Origin: a virus
Length of the DNA stretch: 43,051 bases
Direction: 5' to 3' (one strand)
IMG/VR virus record: IMGVR_UViG_3300007351_000582
Coordinates: 1 to 43,051 of that record
Shown here: positions 1,597-43,051 of the stretch, piece after piece
Layout: every line of letters starts with the position of its first letter
How positions within the stretch are numbered: position 1 is the stretch's first letter
Notes under the pieces: model-generated
Databases searched by the model: none
Seen by the model: the letters and a program-made list of their open reading frames with translations, nothing else
What the model was told of the DNA's origin: nothing
Position numbers and translations under genes: made by a program

Positions 1597-2902
1597 TGTC
1601 CGCACCTCCCATCGTCCGCTCACGGGCGGCTTGCTTCATCTCGTCCGTCCAGCTTTCGCGGCGGGAGCGATTTTCCCAAGTGACCGTCCGCTCAGAGCCG
1701 TCTTTGAAAGTGAACACCAAAACACCGTCATCTGGGACGGTTATCCCCGCGACCCTTGCCGTGAACACGGCTGGGTCGTACTCCGCAAGCCCCAGAGCCT
1801 CGGCGCACTTCTCTTTGAGGATGTCTTCGGGTATCCGCTTGGCGGCGCACTCGTGTTTGCCACGATAAGTGTATGTCGCGCAAGCCCACGTCACCTTGGC
1901 GTACTTTGTGCCGATGGCGTTCACTTTCTTGCGGAACTTCGCGCCGCACCGACCGCAGGTGATGACACCCGAAAACTCGCTGAATGTCAGCTTTCGAGGG
2001 TGATTCGCCTTTGCCGCCCGCCGCGCCATTTCAGCCTGAACAGCCTCGAAAGTCTCCTTGTCGATAATCGCCTCGTGGCTGTCTTCGACGTAGTATTTTG
2101 CCAATTCGCCGTTATTCGGTTTCCAATGCTTGGTGATGTGGTCGGCGATGAAGCCTTTTTGGAGGCACATATCGCCGATGAATTTTTCATTGGTGAGGAT
2201 TGACCCCACCGTGCTTTCCGACCACCGACCGCCACACTTCGTCGGAACGCCGAGCCGAACCAGCTTCTTCATAATGGCGTTCTTGCCAAGACCCGATAAG
2301 TAGTCGGCGAATATCATACGCACGACCTTTGCTTCCTCTGGAATGACGGTCAGCTTGCCCGCCTTGTACTCGTAGCCGTAAATGCGGATGTTGTTAGACG
2401 GCTTGCCCTCCTTGAAGTCCTTGCGGATACGCCACTTGCAGTTTTCGCTGACGGAGCGGGACTCTTCCTGAGCATACGAGGCAAGAATGGTTAACATCAA
2501 CTCCCCGTCGCCCGAAAGCGAGTGCAGGTTCTGCTCTTCGAAAAACACGCCGACACCGAGGTTTTTGAGTTCCCTGACGGTCTCAAGCAGCGTGACCGTG
2601 TTCCTTGCAAAGCGGCTGATTGATTTTGTGAGGACGAGGTCGATACGCCCCGACCGACAGTCGGCAATCAGCCGCTGAAATTCAGGTCTTGAATCCTTTG
2701 TGCCGGTTTCTGCTTCGTCGGCATACACGCCGACATACTCCCATTCGGGCTTGCCCTGTATCAGGTTAGAGTAAAAGCTGACCTGCGCGGCAAGCGAGTG
2801 GAGCATTTCGTCTTTTCCGCAGGAAACGCGGGCATAGGCCGCGACCCGTTGTCGTGACGGCAACTGCACTGTCTGCGGTAGTTTAGTTATCTTTCTGCCC
2901 AT
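1589..2902 (-). CDS. Second large serine recombinase (no coiled coil), 437 aa
   Basis: Second serine recombinase in tandem. It has a resolvase domain with YARVSC and nucleophile Ser27, the SRFARN motif shared with its neighbour, a Recombinase domain, and a zinc ribbon (CGRC near 325, later Cys in WAC and EC). Unlike the downstream copy, it goes almost directly from the zinc ribbon to a short beta-rich tail (VLVFTFKDGSE), so the coiled coil that controls integration versus excision in serine integrases is missing. The start at 2902 has AAAGGAGG 5 bases upstream. It overlaps the preceding SHOCT-like gene by 20 bp. Catalytic residues look intact, so it is probably active, perhaps with the other recombinase. 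Confidence 0.93.
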   Translation of the reverse strand: MGRKITKLPQTVQLPSRQRVAAYARVSCGKDEMLHSLAAQVSFYSNLIQGKPEWEYVGVYADEAETGTKDSRPEFQRLIADCRSGRIDLVLTKSISRFARNTVTLLETVRELKNLGVGVFFEEQNLHSLSGDGELMLTILASYAQEESRSVSENCKWRIRKDFKEGKPSNNIRIYGYEYKAGKLTVIPEEAKVVRMIFADYLSGLGKNAIMKKLVRLGVPTKCGGRWSESTVGSILTNEKFIGDMCLQKGFIADHITKHWKPNNGELAKYYVEDSHEAIIDKETFEAVQAEMARRAAKANHPRKLTFSEFSGVITCGRCGAKFRKKVNAIGTKYAKVTWACATYTYRGKHECAAKRIPEDILKEKCAEALGLAEYDPAVFTARVAGITVPDDGVLVFTFKDGSERTVTWENRSRRESWTDEMKQAARERTMGGADNG

Positions 2903-3116
2903 AACGGCCTCCTTTCGCAGTACCATATATCACTCTGTTTTCCTTACATAGCAAGTCATTTTCGAGGAATATGCTGCACGAAGATAAACCGTATTTCTGG
3001 GCGAGCGTTGTGTCTATCGCCAGCAGGTCGTCATTCGAGATCACGCCCTCGGCAAGCCAGTTTTTGAACACCGCCATCGCCGCCTTGTAGCGGAGAATTG
3101 CTTCTTCCTTGCTCAT
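2883..3116 (-). CDS. SHOCT-like small protein, 77 aa
   Basis: Short helical protein with the look of a SHOCT domain: a helix, then NWLAEGVIS, a DDLLAID helix, and LAQKYGLSS near the middle. SHOCT domains are short C-terminal or stand-alone oligomerisation modules of uncertain function and are often seen beside serine recombinases in clostridial elements. The ATG at 3116 overlaps the stop of the upstream gene as ATGA and has AAGGAGGG 7 bases upstream; a longer in-frame start at 3146 lacks support. It belongs to the recombinase operon. A role as recombinase accessory factor is inference only. Confidence 0.7.
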   Translation of the reverse strand: MSKEEAILRYKAAMAVFKNWLAEGVISNDDLLAIDTTLAQKYGLSSCSIFLENDLLCKENRVIYGTAKGGRYGQKDN

Positions 3117-3514
3117 AGCGAAGCCCTCCTTGCCGCCCCGAAGCAAGCCCGCGAGCAGTATTTGCGGTGTGCGTTGCCATAGGCTTCAAATTCCGTGCCG
3201 CAGGTCGGGCAAATGAAGCGGTAGACCGCCTTGCGGTTGACGGCTTCGGGATGAGCCTTCCACCAAGCCATACGGCACTTATCGGTACAGAAGCGTTTAT
3301 GCTTCGACCCCGGTGTGTGCGTGAGCGGACAGCCGCAGTTGACGCAAACGTCCGTGGCGGCGGGTTGCTCCGCCTTTATCGCTACGCCGATGTTGTTCCG
3401 GCGGCAGTAGGACTTCACGGTGTTCTCGGATATGCCGAGCACGTCGGCGATAACGGCGTAGCTGTCGCCCTTGCCGCGCAAGTATTCAATTCGATGTTTC
3501 TGTGATGTGGTCAT
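3113..3514 (-). CDS. Sigma-r4-like HTH protein with two zinc fingers, 133 aa
   Basis: First gene of the recombinase operon. The N-terminus (about 1-42) is a sigma-70 region 4-like helix-turn-helix (SYAVIADVLGISENTVKSY). Two Cys-rich knuckles follow, each with the pattern CxxC...FC/YC...C (starting at CVNC and CPTC), likely binding zinc. It is too short for a complete sigma factor. It could regulate the operon or act as a directionality factor for the recombinases; neither can be shown from sequence. AGGAGGT lies 7 bases before the ATG, and that site sits in the loop of a small hairpin. A copy of the 38-base repeated element lies immediately upstream. Confidence 0.75.
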   Translation of the reverse strand: MTTSQKHRIEYLRGKGDSYAVIADVLGISENTVKSYCRRNNIGVAIKAEQPAATDVCVNCGCPLTHTPGSKHKRFCTDKCRMAWWKAHPEAVNRKAVYRFICPTCGTEFEAYGNAHRKYCSRACFGAARRASL

Positions 3515-23206: not shown

Positions 23207-25186
23207 TCACAGGTTGTTTCGGTTGCTGTACACAATGCCGCCGAGAACGAAAACCACGCACGGGAGCGCCACACCGTTACCCCACATTTTGTACTCGGCG
23301 GCGTCGGAATGCGGGTCTTTGAGCCATTTCACAATCTGTTTGCGGCTCTTGGGCTTTGTGGATGTACCTATAATATTGCGGTGCGTTTCCCAGACTTCAG
23401 ACCAGAAGGCGATGTCCTCTTCGGTCGGGTTTTCTGTGTAGAGGTTGGCACACCAGTTTGGAGGGAAGCCTTGGAGCAGGGCGCACTCGGCAGGGGTAAG
23501 CCTGCGGACTACATAGCGGTTCTCCACGACGACGCTTTCCGAGCCGCCGCCGTTTGTGCCACCGCAGGATTTGAGTGTACCCGCCGTGTCCCTCTCGCGG
23601 TATCCGCTGTGCTGATAGTTCTCAATCGCCACACGCTCCACGACCGCCTTGCCTTCCTCAATCTGCTGTTGCTGCGGGAATTTATAATCCGAAGCACAGA
23701 GCGCGCCGACCTTATCTTGGTAACAAACACTGTGACATTCCACGGAATTCAAGGTGAACGATACTTCGCCACCGTAACCGTCGCCCCGATGAGAGGGACG
23801 CGAACCATTGCCTTCAACAGCCACCACCGCCATACCGCCGGCGTTCTTGTTCGGGTCGGGAATGGAGGTGTCGAGCGTTCTCGCGGTCTTGGCTTCATAT
23901 ATCCCGCTGTGAGGATTTCCTGACTTCATCGAGTTGCTGTTTTTGGAGCAGATGCCGTAAACCTTCGGCACGAAAACGGTCTGATCGTTGCTCGTGGAGA
24001 GCGTCGCCGACTTATTGTCTTGGATGAGCGCACCCTTACCGCCACCTTCACAGCCGGAACGGATTTTCAGAGTTTTTGGCTCAAATACGCACTGAGTACC
24101 TTTAAAATCTGTGCCTGTGAGGGTGTTCGCCACATCCTCGCCGACCGTCAGGGCGTATTGCCTTTCGTTCATCACGAGCGGGACGTTGCCGCCGCCGGTT
24201 CCCATCCTGCCGGAAAGGGTCTGCACCACGCCGCTTTCGTCGAGTTTGACCCTGCTGTCGGCGGGGTGGTTTTCAATCGCCACCGCAAATTGGTTGTCGC
24301 CCATATCGGCACGGAGCGCACCCGTCGGCTCGCCGCTCCAAGCGTGGCCGCCCAAGCGAGAGACCGCGCCGGGTTCAAACACAATCGGCTGATGCCCGTG
24401 TTCCTGTGAGCGTAGCGTTCCCGTTACATCTTCCGATACGTCCATAAAACTGCCGCCTTGGTCGTTTAAGCAGATTGTGCCTCCAGAGCCATCCGCAGAA
24501 CCTCCGGCAGTTGCTTGCCCCGCTGCGCCGCACGACGGAGGATTCCCTGACAGGCGAGTTTCGTCAAATAGTATTTCTCCGGCACGTTCGCCTGTAAAAT
24601 CGACGACAATGTAACAACGGCGGCGTCTCTGGGCGACTCCCCAAAATTGAGCGTCAAGCGTCCGCCAGCCGACTGAGAAACCGTCTCCCACGATTTCACC
24701 CGATGTTGACCATTTGCCCTTTTCAGGTAAAGGTACTGACAAGGTTTCGTCTTTGATGTGTATGAGTTCATTGAGTACCTCCAAAAAGTCCTCGCCACCG
24801 GATGATGAGTACATACCCGGCACGTTTTCGAGGACGGCATATTTCGGGTACTCGCCGTTTGTGGCGGCGAGCATCTCCTTGATAATCCGTATCACCTGAA
24901 AGAACAGCCCCGACCGCTCGCCGTGGAGACCGGCTCTCTTGCCCGCGACCGAGAGGTCTTGGCAGCAGAAGCCGCCGGTGATGATGTCCACGGGCGGCAC
25001 GGCGGCGCCGTCTATCTTGTTGATGTCGCCGTAGTGCTTCATCTGCGGCAGCCGTTTGGTCGTGACCCGTATCGGGAACGGCTCCACTTCGCTCGCCCAA
25101 AGCGGCTCCATCCCTGTTAAAACGGCTCCGAGCGGAAAACCGCCGGAGCCGTCGAAGAGCGAGCCTAATGTCAATTTCTTATCCAC
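23207..25186 (-). CDS. DNA cytosine-5 methyltransferase with repeat insertion, 659 aa
   Basis: Methylates C5 of cytosine, probably to protect phage DNA from host restriction. Motif I is LFDGSGGFPLG (10-20), motif IV GGFCCQ (71-76, catalytic Cys75), motif VI ENV (120-122), motif VIII QRRRRCYIV (186-194), motif IX RRLTPAECALLQGFP (561-575) and motif X GNGVALPCVVF near the end. About 345 residues (211-556) between motifs VIII and IX hold some eight or nine degenerate units, each with a TL/AL core followed by a short strand, far longer than a normal recognition domain. Motif IV has Cys where Pro is usual. Overlaps the upstream gene by 8 bp. Confidence 0.93.
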   Translation of the reverse strand: MDKKLTLGSLFDGSGGFPLGAVLTGMEPLWASEVEPFPIRVTTKRLPQMKHYGDINKIDGAAVPPVDIITGGFCCQDLSVAGKRAGLHGERSGLFFQVIRIIKEMLAATNGEYPKYAVLENVPGMYSSSGGEDFLEVLNELIHIKDETLSVPLPEKGKWSTSGEIVGDGFSVGWRTLDAQFWGVAQRRRRCYIVVDFTGERAGEILFDETRLSGNPPSCGAAGQATAGGSADGSGGTICLNDQGGSFMDVSEDVTGTLRSQEHGHQPIVFEPGAVSRLGGHAWSGEPTGALRADMGDNQFAVAIENHPADSRVKLDESGVVQTLSGRMGTGGGNVPLVMNERQYALTVGEDVANTLTGTDFKGTQCVFEPKTLKIRSGCEGGGKGALIQDNKSATLSTSNDQTVFVPKVYGICSKNSNSMKSGNPHSGIYEAKTARTLDTSIPDPNKNAGGMAVVAVEGNGSRPSHRGDGYGGEVSFTLNSVECHSVCYQDKVGALCASDYKFPQQQQIEEGKAVVERVAIENYQHSGYRERDTAGTLKSCGGTNGGGSESVVVENRYVVRRLTPAECALLQGFPPNWCANLYTENPTEEDIAFWSEVWETHRNIIGTSTKPKSRKQIVKWLKDPHSDAAEYKMWGNGVALPCVVFVLGGIVYSNRNNL

Positions 25187-26435
25187 GCTCCGCCACCTCC
25201 TTCACGAGGTCGGCGTATTGGAGCGTTTCGCCGTTGCGTTCACAGACTATATCCGCACCGCCGTTTTGCTTGAACTCGGCATACCGGCGCAGGATTACGC
25301 TTGCGTACTTCTCGTCCAGTTCGAGCATATTGCAGATGCGGTCGGCTTGCTCACAGGCGATAAGGGTGGAACCCGAACCACCAAAGGTGTCAAGGACGAT
25401 GCCGTTTGCCTGACTGCTGTTCTTAATCGGGTATGCGAGCAGGTCAAGGGGCTTTGAAGTCGGGTGGTCGCTGTTGCGCTTGGGCTTGGCGAAGTTCCAT
25501 ATAGTGGCTTCGCTCCGTCCTGCGTACCATTTGTGCGTTCCCGTTTTGAGCCACCCATAGAGGATAGGCTCGTGCTGCCATTGGTATGGGCTTCTGCCCA
25601 TAACGAAGCTGTCTTTGACCCAAATGCAAGTACCGCTCAGGTGGAACCCCGCCTCGCGGAACGCCCTGCGGAAGTTTTCGCCCTCGGTGTCGGCGTGGAA
25701 GATATATGCTGAGCCGCCGCCTTCGAGGTTTTCGGCAAGGTTACGGAAAGACGAGAGCAGGAAGGCATAGAACTGCTCCGCCTTCATAGAGTCGTTCTTT
25801 ATTTTCAGCCCGCTCGAACCCTCAAAATTTACATTGTATGGCGGGTCGGTGAGGACGAGGTTCGCCTTGCGACCGTCCATCAGCTTCTTGACCGTGGCGG
25901 CATCGGTGGCGTCACCGCAAATGAGCCGGTGGCGACCGAGCGTCCAAATGTCGCCAGGCAAAACAAAAGCCGCCTGTTCAAGGGCGGCTGTAAGGTCGAA
26001 GTCATCGTCTTGTACGTCGCCAACATCGGCGGCAAACAGCTTCTCTATTTCCTTTTCGTCAAAGCCCGTCAACTCCAAGCCGAAGCCGAGGTCTTTAAGT
26101 TCGGCAAATTCCAGAGCGAGCAGTTCCTCATCCCATCCGGCGTTTAACGCCAGACGGTTATCGGCGAGGATATACGCACGTTTCTGCGCCTCGGTCAAAT
26201 GCTCCGCGAACACGCATGGCACTTTCGTCAGCCCTTCGGCTTTGGCGGCTTCCACACGCCCGTGACCCGCAATGATATTGTAGTCCTTGTCCACGATGAT
26301 GGGGTTGACGAAGCCAAACTCACGAAGGCTTGCGCGAAGCTGCAGAATCTGTTCCTTGCTGTGAGTTCGGGCATTGCGGACATACGGCACAAGGGCGTCG
26401 ATATTCACTTGTTCAAATCTGCTTGTAGCGTTCAT
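25179..26435 (-). CDS. ParB-domain DNA N-methylase, 418 aa
   Basis: Amino-methyltransferase fused to a ParB/Srx-like N-terminal domain. The ParB part (about 8-100) includes NARTHSKEQI and the AGHGRVEAA box (56-64). The methylase has the catalytic DPPY at 197-200 and the AdoMet-binding DTFGGSGST at 349-357, an order typical of beta-class enzymes that methylate adenine N6 or cytosine N4. The ParB domain may recruit it to particular sites. Likely acts with the adjacent C5 enzyme in phage DNA modification. Start at 26435; stop 3 bp before the small terminase end. Confidence 0.93.
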   Translation of the reverse strand: MNATSRFEQVNIDALVPYVRNARTHSKEQILQLRASLREFGFVNPIIVDKDYNIIAGHGRVEAAKAEGLTKVPCVFAEHLTEAQKRAYILADNRLALNAGWDEELLALEFAELKDLGFGLELTGFDEKEIEKLFAADVGDVQDDDFDLTAALEQAAFVLPGDIWTLGRHRLICGDATDAATVKKLMDGRKANLVLTDPPYNVNFEGSSGLKIKNDSMKAEQFYAFLLSSFRNLAENLEGGGSAYIFHADTEGENFRRAFREAGFHLSGTCIWVKDSFVMGRSPYQWQHEPILYGWLKTGTHKWYAGRSEATIWNFAKPKRNSDHPTSKPLDLLAYPIKNSSQANGIVLDTFGGSGSTLIACEQADRICNMLELDEKYASVILRRYAEFKQNGGADIVCERNGETLQYADLVKEVAERG

Positions 26436-28026: not shown

Positions 28027-29385
28027 TCATAGGTTTGCTTTCACCGCGTCGATTAGGGCGGTCTGCGTCCTGTCTTTTTCAGACAGGGCTTTTAAGACCC
28101 GCTCGTCAATCGTTTCTTTGGCGGTGATGTGGTGGATGACCACCGTTTGGGATTGCTGACCCTGCCGCCACAAGCGGGCGTTGGTCTGTTGATAGAGTTC
28201 CAGACTCCATGTCAGCCCGAACCATATAATCGTGTTGCCTCCCGCTTGCAGGTTCAGCCCGTGGCCTGCCGAAGCGGGGTGGATGAGCGCCACGGGCAAC
28301 TCGCCGTTGTTCCATCGAGCGATACTCTCGCTCGTATCCATCTTGGAAAATGGGATATGCTTTTGCTTAAGCCTCGCGGCAATCCGCTCCAAGTCGTGCT
28401 TGAACCAATAGGCGACCAGAACGGGTTTTCCGTTGGCGGCTTCGATTAAGTCCTCCAAAGCGTCAAGTTTGCGGTCGTGGATGTGCCGGACATCGCCGTT
28501 ATCATCGTAGACCGCGCCGTTCGCCATCTGGCACAGCTTGTTTGACAGGGCAGCGGCATTGGCGGCGGTCACTTCGCCGTCGGCAAGCTGAAGCACCAAA
28601 TCCCTCTTCATATCGTCGTACCGTTCCCGTTCATCGTTCGACATCCGCACTGGGTACTCGGCGGTCACCAGTTCCGGCATCTTCAGGTGGTCGGTGGACT
28701 TCATCGAAATGGTAATGTCGGCGATTTTGGCGTATATCCGCTTCTCAGCGTCAGGCAAAGGCTTATAGCTGAAGATGACCTGACCATTTCGCTTGTCGGG
28801 GACAAAGTAGTCCGTGCGATACTGCCCGATGAACCGCCCAAGCCGCTGACCCATATCCAGAAGCCGAAACTCCGCCCACAAGTCCATCAAGCCGTTGCTC
28901 GATGGCGTTCCCGTCAGCCCTACGATGCGCTTGACCTTCGGGCGGGCTTTCATCAGCGACCGGAACCGTTTTGACTGGTGGCTCTTGAACGACGACAACT
29001 CGTCGACCACCACGGTGTCGAAGTCTAAAGGCAGGCCGCTTTCCTCGATGAGCCATTGCACGTTCTCACGGTTGATGATGTAGATGTCGGCGGCTTTCCG
29101 CAGGGCGGCTTTTCGCTCCGCTTCCGTGCCGACCGCCACGGAGAACCGCAAGTCGGAGAGGTGTTCCCATTTCCGCAGTTCCTCCGGCCAAGTGTCGCGG
29201 GCAACGCGGAGAGGCGCGATGACCAGAACGCGGTGGGCTTCGAAGCTGTCAAACAGCAGGTCGTTTATAGCGGTCAGCGTTATCGCCGTCTTGCCAAGCC
29301 CCATGTCGAGCAGCAGGCAGGAAACGGGGTTCGCCTCGATGAACGCCGTGGCGTATTCCTGATAGCTATGCGGTTGATATTTCAG
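28027..29385 (-). CDS. SNF2-type helicase/ATPase, 452 aa
   Basis: Superfamily 2 translocase, probably for replication or recombination. Motif I is LLLDMGLGKT (24-33), motif II VVVDELS (125-131), motif III IVGLTGTPSSN, and motifs V-VI are HPASAGHGLNLQAGG and QTNARLWRQGQ. It lacks a long accessory domain. No ATG is in a suitable place. A CTG at 29385 has GGAGGT 7 bases upstream and gives a protein starting KYQPHSYQEYA, like family members that start MKY; an upstream TTG at 29400 has no ribosome site. I therefore propose a CTG start. It overlaps the VRR-NUC gene by 20 bp. Confidence 0.9.
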   Translation of the reverse strand: MKYQPHSYQEYATAFIEANPVSCLLLDMGLGKTAITLTAINDLLFDSFEAHRVLVIAPLRVARDTWPEELRKWEHLSDLRFSVAVGTEAERKAALRKAADIYIINRENVQWLIEESGLPLDFDTVVVDELSSFKSHQSKRFRSLMKARPKVKRIVGLTGTPSSNGLMDLWAEFRLLDMGQRLGRFIGQYRTDYFVPDKRNGQVIFSYKPLPDAEKRIYAKIADITISMKSTDHLKMPELVTAEYPVRMSNDERERYDDMKRDLVLQLADGEVTAANAAALSNKLCQMANGAVYDDNGDVRHIHDRKLDALEDLIEAANGKPVLVAYWFKHDLERIAARLKQKHIPFSKMDTSESIARWNNGELPVALIHPASAGHGLNLQAGGNTIIWFGLTWSLELYQQTNARLWRQGQQSQTVVIHHITAKETIDERVLKALSEKDRTQTALIDAVKANL

Positions 29386-29647
29386 GAAGCACACCTCCAA
29401 TCTGTCCCGCGTCGTCCAAGACGTAGACCTTGTAGCCCAGCCGCTGTAACATCCCGTGCCTTGCTTCCTGCAACGGGCGGGGCTTCTCGCCGCGCCGTTT
29501 CACTTCTACGAAGCCGCACTTCCCGTCGGGCAGAAGCACAAGGCGGTCGGGCATTCCGTCGAAACCGGGGCTTACGAACTTGGGCGCGATACCTCCCGTC
29601 GCCTTGACCGCCTCCGTGAGCTTGCGCTCCAATGTTTTCTCTCGCAT
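29366..29647 (-). CDS. VRR-NUC domain nuclease, 93 aa
   Basis: Minimal VRR-NUC (PD-(D/E)XK-like) nuclease of 93 residues. The conserved sequence PGFDGMPDRLVLLP (about 27-40) supplies the acidic residues, and CGFVEVKRRGE (about 44-54) the ExK. Related phage proteins may resolve branched DNA. The start has GGAGG 5 bases upstream. It lies between the candidate origin region and the SNF2 helicase, so it belongs to the replication operon. Confidence 0.92.
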   Translation of the reverse strand: MREKTLERKLTEAVKATGGIAPKFVSPGFDGMPDRLVLLPDGKCGFVEVKRRGEKPRPLQEARHGMLQRLGYKVYVLDDAGQIGGVLPEISTA

Positions 29648-29878
29648 AGTGACCTCCGCTTTTCACATTGCCCAACTTGCCGATTCTGCCTATAATTCCT
29701 ACGCGGGCGTATTGCGTATGCCCATTATCCTTATTACTACTTAAATAAGATTTAGTAAGGTGAACATCGGCAATATGGGCAATGGCTGTGTAAGAACCGT
29801 GATTTATTCGGGGCTTGCGACTTTGCCGATAACGGTTGCCGAAGCCCCGACTGGCAATCACGGGCAATCGTCCCGCGC
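29648..29878. other. Candidate replication origin between VirE and VRR-NUC genes
   Basis: A 231-bp gap with no supported gene. It has 19-base inverted arms at 29666-29684 and 29766-29784 (17 of 19 matching), each containing ATTGCCC followed by TTGCCG. A third related unit (ATTGCCCGTGATTGCC on the minus strand) is at 29853-29868. The spacer holds an AT-rich stretch (29724-29759). Two nested 8-bp perfect stems lie at 29797-29804 with 29856-29863, and 29809-29816 with 29842-29849. Iterons, AT-rich core and stem-loops next to the primase-helicase gene fit an origin. No experimental proof. Confidence 0.55.
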
Positions 29879-32206
29879 TCATTCAGACCTCACGAACACG
29901 CGCTGGACGCCGTACATCGGGACTGCCTTCTTGCCGGTCTTGTTGCCCTCGTACTTAGCCCAGCCGCCTATCTGGTTGAGGATACCCTCAATCTCGTAGG
30001 AGTCGGCTTTCTTGATGGACTCGCGGGACTTCCCGAAGCACTCGCACCAAATCTCCATCACGCAGACCTGATTGCGCCGCACGGTGCCTTTTGTCCTCGT
30101 GGGGTCGTCGGTCGAGCGGATGTATTCCAAACGCCTGTAAATATCCATCGTGTCCCAGTTGTCAGGGAGCAGGGCTTCAAGGTACTCCGCCACCAAGCCC
30201 TCGCGGTCGTCGTTCTCCATAGCGTCCCGCTGTTCGGCGAAAGCCGCTAATGCGATGTCGCCTTTGAGGAACAGTTCTTCGCCCTCGGTGTACTTAACAA
30301 GGGCTTCCGCCCAAATCTGGTCAATCTCCGTAAGTTCCCAAGCGCGGTATTTGCCTTCGCCCGATACCCGCACAGGCCAGAAGCGGCGGTTGCCCGTGAT
30401 GTCCCGAAGGAAGCCGCCGTCGGAGTTGGTCGTGCCGACGATGACGCATTGGCGCGGGTGGCTCTCAACGGCGCGTCCGTAAGACGGGCGGTACTTGTCA
30501 TCGGTGCGGGTGATGAACGACTTCACGGTCTCAACGTCCATCTTCTTGATGCCCGCCAACTCGCCAAGTTCGAGAATCCAGTAGCCCTGTAGCTTCTCCG
30601 GCGCGGTCTTGTCCTTCATATCCGATATGGAGAGGCTGTCGGAGTACCATTGCCGTCCGAGCCGTGAGAACAGCGTGGATTTGCCGATGCCCTGTTTGCC
30701 GTTTAGCACAAGGATTGAGTCGTGCTTTGCGCCGGGGTTCAGGATTCGGGCGACCGCCGCAACGAGCGTCTTTCGGGTGACGGCTCTGGTGTAAGGCGAG
30801 TTCTCCGCGCCGAGGTAGTCGATGAGCAGCGTGTCCATTCGGGGAACCCTGTCCCAAGGCGGCAGACTGTTCAGGTACTCCCTTATCGGGTGATAGGCGC
30901 GGTCGTCCGCGACCTTGGTCAGCGCCAGTTCGTAATTCCTCGCCGAGAACGTGCCGTAGCGTTTGTCGATATAAGCCACAAGCTGTGCGGTGTCGGCATC
31001 GCGCCAAGGCGGGTGCGGACGTTCCCACGGGAGGTTTTCGCCGTATATCTGGTTCGCCAGTTTGTTGTAGCGGATGCCGCCGATGGCATCGTCGTTGTTC
31101 AGAATAAGGAGCAGGTTGCCGAGCGTATTGGCGAGGACGCCGCTTTTCTCCCTTTGGAGCCGCGACATCCAATCGTCGCCCTCGGCAAACTCCGTCTCAG
31201 CGGCGGCGATGCGCTCTTCGGCAATCAGCGCGTTGACTTTTTCGTCTTTCAAGGCAAACTCGCTCATCGCTTTGAAGCCCGCCTTGTCGTCAAGGTCGGC
31301 AAATTTGTGGATGCGGACGAGGTCAAAAGCGTTCAGCAACTTGCCGCAGGCGGGGTCGGTGGCGTGGTGGGAGTAAGCCCACTTGCCTTCGTACAGCACC
31401 ACGCCCGCGCTGCTGTCGGCTGGGATATAGTCGTAGCGGCCAGTAATCGCAGATGGTTCATAAACATCGGGCAGGAACGCCGCGATTGCGTCCTCGATGC
31501 CGTAAGCCCGGCAAAACGCCCCGACCACGCCGTCTTTTTCGAGCGGGTCTTGCTGCTGCCGGATACTGCGTTGTATCACCTCGGACTGGCGGCTTGATGT
31601 CGGCCAAAGCGAGCAGTCGCGCCAGTCGGACAGCTTTGCGAGGTATTCGTCGGGGTCGAGTTCGCTGCCGTCGATGGCCTTGAACACATACTCCCCGTCG
31701 GAGGGCGTGGACGGCCAGTACATCAGGCGTTCCGGCTCGTAGGTCGAATCGTCAAAGAAATCCATCCCTATTTCGTCTGCCACAAGCCGTGAAAGCGCAG
31801 CATATTCGTCCGGCGTAACGTCGCGGGAGAGTGGAATAACCACGCGGAGTCTTGGGGCTTCCGGCGTGTGGCTGTGGGTGGAGTAAATGGCGCACTTATG
31901 CGGGAACAACATCTCCACGCTGTCGATGAAGCCGCCGTCGGCATGGTCGGCGTCAAGCGTAATCCCCGAACGGCTCTCGACCGTGTCCTTCTTGCGCCGT
32001 CCCGACTTTAGGTGACCGAGGACATATCCGCCCACGTCTTTGGCGGCGTCGCGGCGGTCTTTCGTAAACTTCCGGTACTCGGCGACCGTCTCGGTGGTGC
32101 GGCGGGTGACATTGAACCGCTCGCACAACTTTTCAAAGGTGGTCTTTTTGTTGACCCACCGTTTCGACAGGCGGCTGTCGCCGTAGGATATTTTCAGGTC
32201 TCGCAT
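29879..32206 (-). CDS. VirE/VapE-type primase-helicase, 775 aa
   Basis: Replication initiator combining primase and helicase parts. The N-terminal half resembles an archaeo-eukaryotic primase fold: ITLDADHADGG with Asp85 and Asp87, YSTHSHTPEAPRLRVVIPLS with His111/His113, and a following helical region. The C-terminal half is VirE/SF3-like, with Walker A GKQGIGKS at 503-510, WILELGELAGIKK acidic box, and TTNSDGGFLRDITGNRRFWPV near the sensor region. I chose ATG 32206 with AGGAGG 10 bases upstream; the longer frame to 32317 overlaps another gene. Located just before the candidate origin. Confidence 0.93.
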   Translation of the reverse strand: MRDLKISYGDSRLSKRWVNKKTTFEKLCERFNVTRRTTETVAEYRKFTKDRRDAAKDVGGYVLGHLKSGRRKKDTVESRSGITLDADHADGGFIDSVEMLFPHKCAIYSTHSHTPEAPRLRVVIPLSRDVTPDEYAALSRLVADEIGMDFFDDSTYEPERLMYWPSTPSDGEYVFKAIDGSELDPDEYLAKLSDWRDCSLWPTSSRQSEVIQRSIRQQQDPLEKDGVVGAFCRAYGIEDAIAAFLPDVYEPSAITGRYDYIPADSSAGVVLYEGKWAYSHHATDPACGKLLNAFDLVRIHKFADLDDKAGFKAMSEFALKDEKVNALIAEERIAAAETEFAEGDDWMSRLQREKSGVLANTLGNLLLILNNDDAIGGIRYNKLANQIYGENLPWERPHPPWRDADTAQLVAYIDKRYGTFSARNYELALTKVADDRAYHPIREYLNSLPPWDRVPRMDTLLIDYLGAENSPYTRAVTRKTLVAAVARILNPGAKHDSILVLNGKQGIGKSTLFSRLGRQWYSDSLSISDMKDKTAPEKLQGYWILELGELAGIKKMDVETVKSFITRTDDKYRPSYGRAVESHPRQCVIVGTTNSDGGFLRDITGNRRFWPVRVSGEGKYRAWELTEIDQIWAEALVKYTEGEELFLKGDIALAAFAEQRDAMENDDREGLVAEYLEALLPDNWDTMDIYRRLEYIRSTDDPTRTKGTVRRNQVCVMEIWCECFGKSRESIKKADSYEIEGILNQIGGWAKYEGNKTGKKAVPMYGVQRVFVRSE

Positions 32207-32418
32207 TCCGCCGTTTCCTCCTCTACATATTTGCCCCGCGCCCAAATCAGGAAATTGCCCCGGCAGGTCGTGTCGTACTTGTTGCAGGTCTTGCCGAAAG
32301 CCGGGCAGCCGCCGCAAGCCAGCACGACAAAGTGGTGGTTGGCGATAAATTCGGGCGTGAGGGTTTCTTTCCAGACATCGAAGTTGGTCTTTATGGGCTT
32401 GGTTTGTTTAGATGCCAT
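32194..32418 (-). CDS. Cys-rich small protein, 74 aa
   Basis: Unknown small protein. After a basic N-terminus (ASKQTKPIK) it has HHFVVLACGGCPAFGKTC, and a further CRGNFLIW, a set of four to five cysteines suggesting metal binding or a disulfide. No family recognised. AGGAGGT is 8 bases before the ATG at 32418. It overlaps the VirE start by 13 bp and its neighbour by 11 bp, so it is translated with the replication genes. Confidence 0.6.
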   Translation of the reverse strand: MASKQTKPIKTNFDVWKETLTPEFIANHHFVVLACGGCPAFGKTCNKYDTTCRGNFLIWARGKYVEEETAECET

Positions 32419-33950: not shown

Positions 33951-35945
33951 TCAATCTTTTTTATAAAATGGGCAATCGTAGCCATCGGCACGGAGCAGAA
34001 GCCCCTCCGCCCAAGGCGGGGTGCGGCTCATTTGTTCGCAGAGAACCTTGGTAGACATACGCTTGTCGGCTTCGATGACCATTTCGTCGTGTACGTGCAT
34101 CACAATGTCGCAGCACCGTTGCGCCTGCATTGCGTAGCAGAGAATGTCGCGGCTCGTAGCCTGCACGATGTTTTCCACGAACTTGGGTCCGTAGCTTTCG
34201 AGCCGTTCCCACTTTTTCGTGCCGCCAACTCCCTCGTAAGTCACGCAGTCCGAGCCGAACTGGTTAGCGCCGATGCGCGGCTTCACATAGGCGAGCCGCC
34301 GTCCCGACGGCAATGTAATAAAGAGCATTGCGCTCTGAACGCCGAAGCGGATGCCGTGGGCTTCGGTGACCGTCCTGTCCCTGACCGCTGTCATTGCCGC
34401 TTTGTCCACGTCCCACCAGAGCCTAACGATGTTCGGGTTGGAAGCCCGCCACGCCGTCACCAGTGGTTGCAATTCGTCCTCCTGCAAACCCATCTCCAAC
34501 GCGCCCATTGCTTTGAGCGCGCCGACCGAGCCGCCGTAGCCGAGGGCGAGTTCCGCAATCTTGCCTTTTTGCCGCAGGGGTGAGCCTTTGGTGACTTCCT
34601 CAATCGGGACGTGGAACATCTGGCTTGCCGAAGCCTCGTATATTTTGCCGTGGGTGGCAAACACATCGTTGCGCCACCGCTCCCCGGCAAGCCACGCGAT
34701 GACGCGGGCTTCGATTGCCGAGAAGTCGGCCACGACAAACTTCGTGCCGGGCTTCGGGATAAACGCCGTGCGAATGAGTTCCGACAGTACCTCCGGCACG
34801 GAATCATAAAGAAGTTCCAAAGCGTTAAAGTCGCCGCTACGCACCAAAGCCCGCGCCTGTTCGAGGTCGGGCAGATGGTTCTGCGGGAGGTTCTGCATCT
34901 GAATCAAGCGGCCAGCCCACCTACCGGTTCGGTTAGCGCCATAAAACTGGAACATCCCGCGAGCGCGACCGTCGGCGCAGACAGCGTTCTCCATCGCCTG
35001 ATACTTCTTGACCGAGGATTTCGCTAACTGCTGTCGCAGTGACAAAGCCCGACTGAGCGGCTCAGGAGCCGTTTTCAGCAATTCTGCGACCGCTTTCTTA
35101 CCGAGCGTATCGGTTTCCAAACCGTGGTCGGCAAGCCATTGCTTCATCTGAGCCACGGAGTTCGGGTTGTCAAGTTCCGTGATTTTCTTCATCAGGCGGG
35201 TGAGTTCGGCCTTAGAGCGGGCGTCGGCGGCGATGGCGTTCCTGACGAGCGTCATATCAACCATCACGCCACGGTCGTTGATTTCTTGGTCGAGTGCGTA
35301 CTCGTCCCAGACGGATTCAGGCACGGGAAATTTTGAGAGACGCTCCTGAATGGACATTTCCGCTTCCACGTCGCGGCGGTTATACGCCTTGAAAGCCGCC
35401 CACTTGTCGGGAGAGTGGTCAGGAAGATTGCGGGTGCGCTGGCCATTGGCGGCGGTCGCCTCGCACGGCTTGCAGAAATAGCGGATGAGTTCCTTGCCCT
35501 CGGTCAGCTTCTGCTTTTCCAATCCCAAAACCGCGCCCGCGCCTTCAAGCGAAAGCGGCAGTCCCATATAGGCTGACCAGACCATACTGCACCGCCACGA
35601 TTCTGGGTTCAGGTATTTCGCCTTGCCGAGGTATTGGGAAGAAAAGTGATTGTCGGCGAATGGGTCAAGGGATATGCCCATATCAGATAGGTAGCGGGAA
35701 AGGCATACCCGCTCGAAGTTGGCGTTAAACGCCCATTTCTGCACGTCGTCATCCGTAAGTGCGTCGATGATTTCATTTGGAAGCATTTCGCCCGCCGTTA
35801 AGTCCACGACTTGCACCTCGCCGCCGTCCACGGAGTACCCAAACAGCAAAATCTCAAAGTCCGGCGATTCGGCATAGCGATAAACACCAGACTTTGCGAG
35901 GTCGACAGACGAGAAAGTTTCAATATCTATGCTGATAGTTTTCAT
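33951..35945 (-). CDS. Family A DNA polymerase, 664 aa
   Basis: Phage replicative polymerase of the Pol I type. The N-terminal 3'-5' exonuclease has the DxE motif in SIDIETFSS (Asp7, Glu9), and NANFERVCLSRYL. Polymerase motif A is FVVADFSAIEARVIAWL (about 403-420, catalytic Asp407), motif B KGSPLRQKGKIAELALGYGG, and motif C MHVHDEMVIE (about 613-622). There is no 5'-3' exonuclease domain. I chose ATG 35945 behind GGAGGG; a longer frame start at 35963 is less likely. It is the centre of the replication operon. Confidence 0.95.
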   Translation of the reverse strand: MKTISIDIETFSSVDLAKSGVYRYAESPDFEILLFGYSVDGGEVQVVDLTAGEMLPNEIIDALTDDDVQKWAFNANFERVCLSRYLSDMGISLDPFADNHFSSQYLGKAKYLNPESWRCSMVWSAYMGLPLSLEGAGAVLGLEKQKLTEGKELIRYFCKPCEATAANGQRTRNLPDHSPDKWAAFKAYNRRDVEAEMSIQERLSKFPVPESVWDEYALDQEINDRGVMVDMTLVRNAIAADARSKAELTRLMKKITELDNPNSVAQMKQWLADHGLETDTLGKKAVAELLKTAPEPLSRALSLRQQLAKSSVKKYQAMENAVCADGRARGMFQFYGANRTGRWAGRLIQMQNLPQNHLPDLEQARALVRSGDFNALELLYDSVPEVLSELIRTAFIPKPGTKFVVADFSAIEARVIAWLAGERWRNDVFATHGKIYEASASQMFHVPIEEVTKGSPLRQKGKIAELALGYGGSVGALKAMGALEMGLQEDELQPLVTAWRASNPNIVRLWWDVDKAAMTAVRDRTVTEAHGIRFGVQSAMLFITLPSGRRLAYVKPRIGANQFGSDCVTYEGVGGTKKWERLESYGPKFVENIVQATSRDILCYAMQAQRCCDIVMHVHDEMVIEADKRMSTKVLCEQMSRTPPWAEGLLLRADGYDCPFYKKD

Positions 35946-40821: not shown

Positions 40822-41034
40822 TTGGCTGACAAGAAATCTAAGCCCAAAGTGCCGATGGAGCATCTCAACATTGCCGAGTTCAACCGCGGCCAGTCCTCAA
40901 AGCTAATTCGTGAATTGGTCGCGGAAGACAAGGCGGCATTCATACAAAAAAACGGCAAGCCCATAGCAGTTATGATTTCATACGCCCGCTATAAACGCCT
41001 GCTTGATGAAGGAGTAGATATCAATGAACATTAA
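40822..41034 (+). CDS. Phd/YefM-like small protein, 70 aa
   Basis: Resembles the Phd/YefM antitoxin family. The core SSKLIRELVAEDKAAFIQKNGKPIAVMISYARYKRLLDE (about 24-63) matches the typical pattern of these proteins, which bind operators and often a toxin. No toxin gene follows; instead HsdM overlaps it by 11 bp. The TTG at 40822 has AAAGGAGG 8 bases upstream. It may regulate the restriction-modification genes. Family call is good, function inferred. Confidence 0.8.
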   Translation: MADKKSKPKVPMEHLNIAEFNRGQSSKLIRELVAEDKAAFIQKNGKPIAVMISYARYKRLLDEGVDINEH

Positions 41035-43051
41035 CGTATCCGAAAAATCCAGCTTCATATGGAAGATAGCCGACCTGCTCCGAGGCGACTACAAGCAGAG
41101 CGAGTACGGCGACGTTATCCTGCCCTTTACGGTGCTTTGCCGACTGGACAGCGTTCTTGCGCCGACGAAGGACAAGGTTCTGGAATTGAACGCGACCCTC
41201 AAATACAAAAACAAAGCCCCGTTCTTTGAGAGAACGACGGGCTATAAGTTCTATAACACAAGCAAGTTCACGTTTGCCAAGCTGAAAGATGACGCGGGCA
41301 ACATCGCCGATAACTTGCGCGACTACATCAAGGGCTTCTCCGAGAACGCCCGCGAGATTTTGGAGTCGTTCGACATCTACGCCCAGATTGCGCGGCTCGA
41401 CAAGGCGAACCTGCTTTATCTCGTCGTGTCCCGCTTTGTGGACGACATCGACCTCCATCCCGATAAGGTGTCCAACAACGAGATGGGCTACATCTTTGAG
41501 GAGTTGATTCGCCGCTTCTCTGAAATGAGCAATGAGACCGCCGGCGAACACTTCACTCCTCGTGAGGTCATTCGGCTAATGGTTTCTATGCTGTTCACAC
41601 CCGATATGCAGAAAATCTGCGAGCCGGGCTTTATGGCAAAGCTATACGACCCGGCGGCGGGAACCGGCGGTATGCTTTCGGCGGGCATCGAGTACGCTGG
41701 GGAGCTAAACGACCGCGCCATTATCGAGGTGTACGGTCAGGAACTCAACGAAAAGACCTATGCTATCTGCAAGTCCGACACGATGATTAAAGGGAAGGGC
41801 TATGAGAACATCTACCTCGGTAACAGCTTCACCGAGGACAGACTGGCGTGTGAGCATTTCCACTATATGCTCTGCAATCCGCCTTTCGGCGTTGAGTGGA
41901 AAAAGTACGAGGGCTTCATCCGCGACGAAAACGAGGACAAAGGCTATGCCGGTCGCTTCGGCGCGGGACTGCCCCGCGTGTCGGACGGCTCACTGCTGTT
42001 CTTGCAGCACATGATAAGCAAGATGCTCCCGCCGGAGGAAGGCGGCACACGCATCGGCATCGTTTTCAACGGCTCTCCGCTCTTCACGGGTGACGCTGGC
42101 AGCGGCGAAAGCGAAATCCGCAGATGGATTATCGAGAACCATTGGCTCGAAACCATCATCGCCCTGCCTGACCAGATGTTTTATAACACGGGCATCCAGA
42201 CATACGTTTGGATTATTACCAACCGCAAGAAAAAGACGATAAGGAACAAGGTCTTGCTGATAGATGGCACTTCGTTCTTTGAACGTATGCGGAAGCCGCT
42301 CGGAGAGAAGCGCAAGATGTTCACCGACGACCACATCAAGGCATTGACCGCCATCTACGGCGATGCCTTGCTCGGCGCGACGAAAAGTGAGTTCTGCAAA
42401 ATCTTTGACGAGGACGACTTCGCCTATTGGAAAGTTACCGTGGAGCGTCCGCTCCGTCTGAACTTCCAGACGAGCGCGGAGCGCATTGAGCGTGTGCGGG
42501 AGCAGACGGCTTTCGCCAACCTCGCCAAAAGCCGCAAGCGCAAGCTGGAGGAAATTGCCCGCGAGGAAGCCGAGGGCAGGAAACAGCAGCAAGCGATACT
42601 TGAGGCTATCCGCACGATTGACAGCGCAACGGTCTATAAGAACCGCGAGACGTTTTCCAAGTTGCTCTCCAAAGCATTTAAAAAGGCGGGGCTTAACGTG
42701 AAAACCTCGCTCCTAAAAGCCATTCTTGCCGGGCTGTCCGAAAAGGATGAGACCGCCGATATCTGCACGGACGCCAAGGGCAGGCCGGAACCCGACCCCG
42801 ATTTGCGTGACACCGAGCAAGTGCCGTTCAAAGAGGATATCGATGAATACATTCGGCGCGAGGTGCTGCCCTATGTACCGGACGCTTGGGTAGACGAAAA
42901 AAAGACAAAAAAGGGCTACGAAATTCCCTTCACGCGACACTTTTACAAATACGAAGAATTGGGCGATGCTGATAAAACCCTGCGCGAAATTCAGTCGCTG
43001 GGCGAGAAAATTCAAACCGCCATCTCTCGGCTGTTTGCGGAGGAGGTGTGA
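41024..43051 (+). CDS. hsdM: Type I restriction-modification methyltransferase subunit HsdM, 675 aa
   Basis: N6-adenine methyltransferase of a type I system. The N-terminal helical domain (about 5-170, with SFIWKIADLLRGDYKQSEYGDVILPFTVLCRL) is the HsdM_N domain. The AdoMet motif DPAAGTGGM is at 209-217 and the catalytic NPPF at 285-288. A C-terminal extension (about 490-675) is charged and helical, longer than in E. coli-type HsdM, and ends TAISRLFAEEV. The start overlaps the Phd-like gene. The window ends at its stop codon, so HsdS and HsdR, if present, lie outside. Confidence 0.95.
   Translation: MNINVSEKSSFIWKIADLLRGDYKQSEYGDVILPFTVLCRLDSVLAPTKDKVLELNATLKYKNKAPFFERTTGYKFYNTSKFTFAKLKDDAGNIADNLRDYIKGFSENAREILESFDIYAQIARLDKANLLYLVVSRFVDDIDLHPDKVSNNEMGYIFEELIRRFSEMSNETAGEHFTPREVIRLMVSMLFTPDMQKICEPGFMAKLYDPAAGTGGMLSAGIEYAGELNDRAIIEVYGQELNEKTYAICKSDTMIKGKGYENIYLGNSFTEDRLACEHFHYMLCNPPFGVEWKKYEGFIRDENEDKGYAGRFGAGLPRVSDGSLLFLQHMISKMLPPEEGGTRIGIVFNGSPLFTGDAGSGESEIRRWIIENHWLETIIALPDQMFYNTGIQTYVWIITNRKKKTIRNKVLLIDGTSFFERMRKPLGEKRKMFTDDHIKALTAIYGDALLGATKSEFCKIFDEDDFAYWKVTVERPLRLNFQTSAERIERVREQTAFANLAKSRKRKLEEIAREEAEGRKQQQAILEAIRTIDSATVYKNRETFSKLLSKAFKKAGLNVKTSLLKAILAGLSEKDETADICTDAKGRPEPDPDLRDTEQVPFKEDIDEYIRREVLPYVPDAWVDEKKTKKGYEIPFTRHFYKYEELGDADKTLREIQSLGEKIQTAISRLFAEEV

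Follow-up and report, generated by a model that had tools for sequence, protein, structure and literature searches.

A non-coding gap adjoining vapE as a probable iteron-type replication origin of a tailed-phage prophage

We analysed a 43,051-nt stretch of viral DNA (IMG/VR record IMGVR_UViG_3300007351_000582, positions 1 to 43,051; hereafter the window). The window is a prophage. Its genes encode a serine integrase, portal, terminase, methylases, a sigma-like regulator, an SNF2 helicase, a VRR-NUC nuclease and, across a non-coding gap, the primase-helicase VapE, together with a nucleoside deoxyribosyltransferase-like protein, an antirepressor, a family-A polymerase, a ssDNA-binding protein, an exonuclease and a repressor-like protein. 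Every gene in this list, from integrase to repressor-like protein, is encoded on the − strand. The − strand frame at 25179–26435 joins the N-terminal domain of ParB to an N6/N4 DNA methylase. At the right end, beyond the phage gene block, a type I restriction gene, HsdM, begins on the opposite strand (41024–43051, +). The vapE open reading frame of 812 aa opens with TTG; the true start is probably near 32221, because most homologues begin there, about 30 residues later.

Table 1. Positions of the proposed origin, its elements and the neighbouring genes in the window
Feature	Position	Strand	Remark
Proposed replication origin: whole non-coding gap, vapE stop to VRR-NUC start	29648–29878	−	231 bases
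Iteron doublet A, TTGCC, 10-bp spacing, directly 3′ of vapE	29853–29867	−	TTGCC at 29853 and 29863
Stem-loop GGGGCTT...AAGCCCC with two oppositely oriented iterons	29808–29850	−	kept in close relatives only
Iteron doublet B, left arm	29766–29784	−	CATTGCCCATATTGCCGAT on − strand; adjoins AT-rich core
AT-rich core, proposed melting region	about 29711–29765		0.67–0.71 AT in 45-nt windows; position conserved
Degenerate copy of alternating pyrimidine-purine box	29688–29723	−	GGCATACGCAATACGCCCGCGTAGGAATTATAGG; family consensus CGTATACGCGCGTATAGG
Iteron doublet C, right arm	29666–29684	+	inverted relative to B
vapE, primase-helicase, proposed origin-binding initiator	29879–32317	−	conserved part from near 32221, 780 aa
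VapE C-terminal winged-helix domain, proposed iteron reader	29882–30208	−	residues 672–780; residue 762 in wing
VRR-NUC nuclease gene, downstream of proposed origin	29366–29647	−	
Serine integrase	1–1623	−	

The gap is, as a first-pass annotation had described it, free of genes, and no other non-coding stretch between the main phage genes listed in this analysis is as long. It contains three TTGCC doublets, two of which make up inverted arms of 19 nt that flank an AT-rich core. The arms, which the annotation had also pointed out, are complementary at 17 of 19 positions with 81 nt between them, whereas 200 dinucleotide-shuffled versions of the gap never gave better than 16/19 (mean of the best arms 12.7). 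Furthermore, among 186 tiled 231-nt windows over the phage, the only one with arms scoring 17 overlaps the gap. The core between them, likewise noted at first pass, reaches 71% AT, and the reported third unit of the same type corresponds to doublet A. Same-strand TTGCC doublets with 8–10-bp spacing occur five times in the 43 kb, three of them inside the gap; the others are at position 503 and at 34561. The two 8-bp stems of the annotation are both present, with 8–9 bp (29797–29804/29856–29863 and 29808–29816/29842–29850), but they are the least general feature of the gap, and the inner one is conserved among close relatives only.

Among VapE relatives drawn from IMG/VR, GTDB genomes, phages and plasmids, hundreds of loci have the gap and its repeats beside VapE, so the comparison with related phages proposed at first pass came out in favour of the repeats. 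Specifically, 154 of 162 loci in a first set have a non-coding gap of 120–400 bp between VapE and VRR-NUC, typically about 230 bp, and the median gap in an enlarged set (235 proteins) is 228 bp. Longer spaces separate the two genes in L057, L059, L108 and L114–L118 (about 358 bp) and in L050, L055 and L103 (537–896 bp); L057 has a small open frame after the repeat region. Along the direction of the genes, the common order is VapE stop, iterons (accompanied by the stem-loop where relatives are close), a direct iteron doublet with 8–10-bp spacing, the AT-rich core, the alternating box CGTATACGCGCGTATAGG, an inverted iteron doublet, and then a Shine-Dalgarno sequence and the VRR-NUC start. The iteron doublets and the AT-rich core are common to a wide range of relatives, and the alternating box is found in most. 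Between the window and its relative L004 the gap is 88.7% identical, versus 62.8% at vapE 4-fold sites (p = 8e-13), and nine other pairs all lean in the same direction. This excess of gap identity over 4-fold-site identity indicates purifying selection acting on the gap at the DNA level.

The alternating CGTATACGCGCGTATA box is a family feature that is weak in the window. Its core matches at 10 or more of 11 positions in 175 of 211 distinct gaps, versus 4 of 235 coding controls. The window's own copy is degenerate (9/11), and we count the box as weak there because the alternating run of 9 nt is no longer than expected by chance. When one version of the box was searched against a phage collection at the nucleotide level, a single weak match came back, as the box is short and variable.

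Each phage repeats its own iteron word, which is TTGCC, GTGCC, GTTCC, GTTTCC, TTACC or TGTCC, and all copies within one phage change together, even between phages whose VapE proteins are nearly identical. In particular, L046 carries seven copies of TTACC and L049 seven copies of TTGCC, with VapE 97% identical, while L058 carries seven copies of GTTCC and L060 eight copies of GTGCC, again with VapE 97% identical. Over the last 109 residues, the only differences between the VapE proteins of L058 and L060 are at residue 762 (S/T) and at three positions among the final four. Such concerted change is the pattern that one sequence-specific binding protein would be expected to enforce.

VapE and the SaPI initiator PriRep1 are homologues in both the helicase and the predicted C-terminal winged helix. 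A phmmer comparison with PriRep1 (PDB 7pds, annotated 'Similar to D. nodosus vapE') gives an E-value of 1.5e-67, and VapE residues 349–780 match the 7pds structure with a Z-score of 27 and 34% identity in the structural alignment. The C-terminal domain folded alone is confidently predicted (pLDDT 94) to be a winged helix, with residue 762 in the wing loop. Structurally this domain is most similar to the equivalent portion of PriRep1 (7pds, Z 12.4), and winged-helix DNA-binding domains are numerous among the weaker matches. Unlike PriRep1, the phage VapE has an N-terminal AEP PrimPol-like region, which matches structure 6zp9.

To relate VapE residues to iteron words, we took 11 independent word-switch contrasts on a tree built without the VapE C-terminal domain. 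Residue 762 differs in all 11 contrasts, four of which are affected by indels or an uncertain alignment of the wing, whereas it differs in 10 of the 67 pairs that share a word (Fisher p = 4.5e-8). It is the best of 780 VapE columns, the next column reaching 6.5e-5; this ranking uses the same pairs throughout, despite the switch pairs being on average more diverged than the control pairs (0.80 versus 0.90 identity). The ten best columns include 761, 762, 763 and 772, which lie within residues 761–772, as well as 780 and 718. In the same contrast test the best SNF2 column reaches about 2e-4 and the best VRR-NUC column about 6e-4. Residue 762 is typically T for G words (46/52), Q for both A words, and S, N, V or T for T words; exceptions to this rule include Q with TTGCC in L092 and L095 and T in 15 T-class proteins. 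The co-variation of residue 762 with an iteron base lends indirect support to iteron binding by VapE, and it is the outcome expected if VapE reads an iteron origin.

The module is also found on extrachromosomal elements. The VapE-gap-VRR-NUC-helicase block is present on a circular element of Paenibacillus cellulosilyticus (40.9 kb) and on the circular Corynebacterium falsenii element phiCFAL8171I (42 kb). In the 4.3-kb Gluconobacter plasmid pGO128 (L476, NC_003374), a helicase-only VapE is the sole recognisable replication gene, and after it, at 2685–3202, an AT-rich stretch is surrounded by 13 AGCAC/GTGCT words. These circular carriers support, short of proof, the notion that VapE and its downstream iterons constitute a replicon.

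The arrangement closely resembles that of SaPI and other PICI replicons. The C-terminal domain of SaPI Rep recognises an iteron origin directly downstream of its own gene, segments comprising pri, rep and ori replicate plasmids, and iteron words differ between PICI elements (PMC7581432, PMC6092414). As in SaPIbov1, SaPI5, EfCIV583 and EcCICFT073, the proposed origin of the window and its relatives lies immediately 3′ of the initiator gene, and two sets of short, element-specific iterons surround an AT-rich segment. The initiator is in both cases a helicase of the SaPI Rep/PriRep type with a C-terminal DNA-binding domain, which is predicted here. Unlike in the satellites, the module resides on full tailed phages that encode a portal, a terminase and a family-A polymerase of their own, VRR-NUC follows the origin, and most members add the invariant alternating box. 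The window is not itself a PICI element, as it encodes a portal and a terminase large subunit. A 2018 paper called this layout unique to PICI/SaPI satellites (PMC6092414), and its presence in complete phages is relevant to the ancestry of PICI replicons. Our search of the non-subscription literature found no paper naming an origin beside VapE in a tailed phage.

Other systems share parts of this plan. The SCCmec helicase Cch2 uses its C-terminal domain to bind direct repeats of 5 nt that lie downstream of its gene (PMC7581432), as we propose for VapE. Cch2 differs in belonging to another helicase branch, and its putative origin has only three iterons and is primed by a separate polymerase pair, CCPol-MP. 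The origin of phage lambda resembles the gap in having iterons and an AT-rich element adjoining a replication gene, but the lambda iterons lie inside the O gene, and the lambda initiator and loader are unrelated to VapE. PMC11447400 likewise locates the lambda iterons within a replication gene. A lambda-type origin does not fit the window, where no TTGCC doublet lies within vapE. An oriC-type origin with a cluster of DnaA boxes is not supported either; the window has no exact match to TTWTNCACA, with 1.6 expected by chance.

We consider it highly probable that the gap is a prophage replication origin of PICI-type layout read by VapE. The origin suggested at first pass for this site is thus supported by the conserved repeats, the purifying selection, the PriRep1 homology and the wing co-variation. 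We infer that VapE, which joins an AEP-type primase, an SF3-like helicase and a C-terminal winged helix, uses the last of these domains to bind the TTGCC iterons, and that the oppositely oriented doublets load two VapE hexamers face to face. The AT-rich core would then melt, together with the pyrimidine-purine box where present, and VapE would unwind the DNA and prime it for the phage family-A polymerase. A change of GC skew had been proposed as a check; in about 200 loci neither GC nor AT skew shows a step around the gap, a weak test because all genes and transcription there run in one direction.

The gap could instead serve mainly in transcriptional control; its repeats would then be the operator of the VRR-NUC/SNF2 operon, bound by VapE or another phage protein, and replication would start elsewhere. 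The gap does precede that operon, and TATAGG comes after the conserved box, but a promoter scan found no promoter-like site on the coding strand of the gap; its one sigma-70-like match is on the + strand, antisense to the genes. Moreover, the co-varying protein is a PriRep1-type helicase and not a repressor, and pGO128 keeps its iterons 3′ of VapE though the genes downstream differ from those of the VRR-NUC block. We regard a mainly regulatory role as unlikely. Still less probable is a structured RNA or leader whose stems are the inverted arms. The gap has an RNA fold z-score of −4.4 and some paired columns change on both sides, but consensus-fold pairing is confounded, as it falls largely within the iterons: most both-side changes in A4 are at iteron positions, and same-strand copies also co-change, which pairing does not explain. 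Rfam gives no match for the gap, and an RNA would leave the co-variation with the VapE wing unexplained. Given the stem-loop and the negative fold energy, a role in RNA or regulation keeps a low probability, and it could coexist with an origin.

A similarly slim chance attaches to a packaging start, a recombination site or a partition centromere for a ParB-like protein. The ParB-N-methylase fusion would suit a centromere, but the iteron word tracks VapE residue 762 far more strongly than any column of SNF2 or VRR-NUC, the two other genes compared. An origin read by VapE remains our preferred reading of the gap.

What is new here is a PICI-type origin layout across a wide phage lineage, with a testable link between residue and base. 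We propose, tentatively, that a large tailed-phage lineage of Bacillota and Actinomycetota uses such origins, with specificity set largely by one to three residues of the VapE wing (761–763), which would give rise to concerted word switches and mutual orthogonality; the invariant alternating tract may be an extra origin element undescribed for PICIs. VapE proteins are still often labelled 'virulence-associated', and our data would place this branch as replication initiators with a cognate origin adjoining. The natural iteron switches between near-identical phages offer a ready experiment on origin reading that involves one to three residues, and also a means of flagging origins automatically across many phages from the gut and the environment. 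Three GTDB contigs, QKJV01000098 (L082), QKJV01000332 (L089) and JAHKLX010000061 (L084), are binned as Desulfobulbaceae and Micrarchaeota; they carry VapE modules 65–90% identical to that of the window and are probably mis-binned Bacillota phage contigs.
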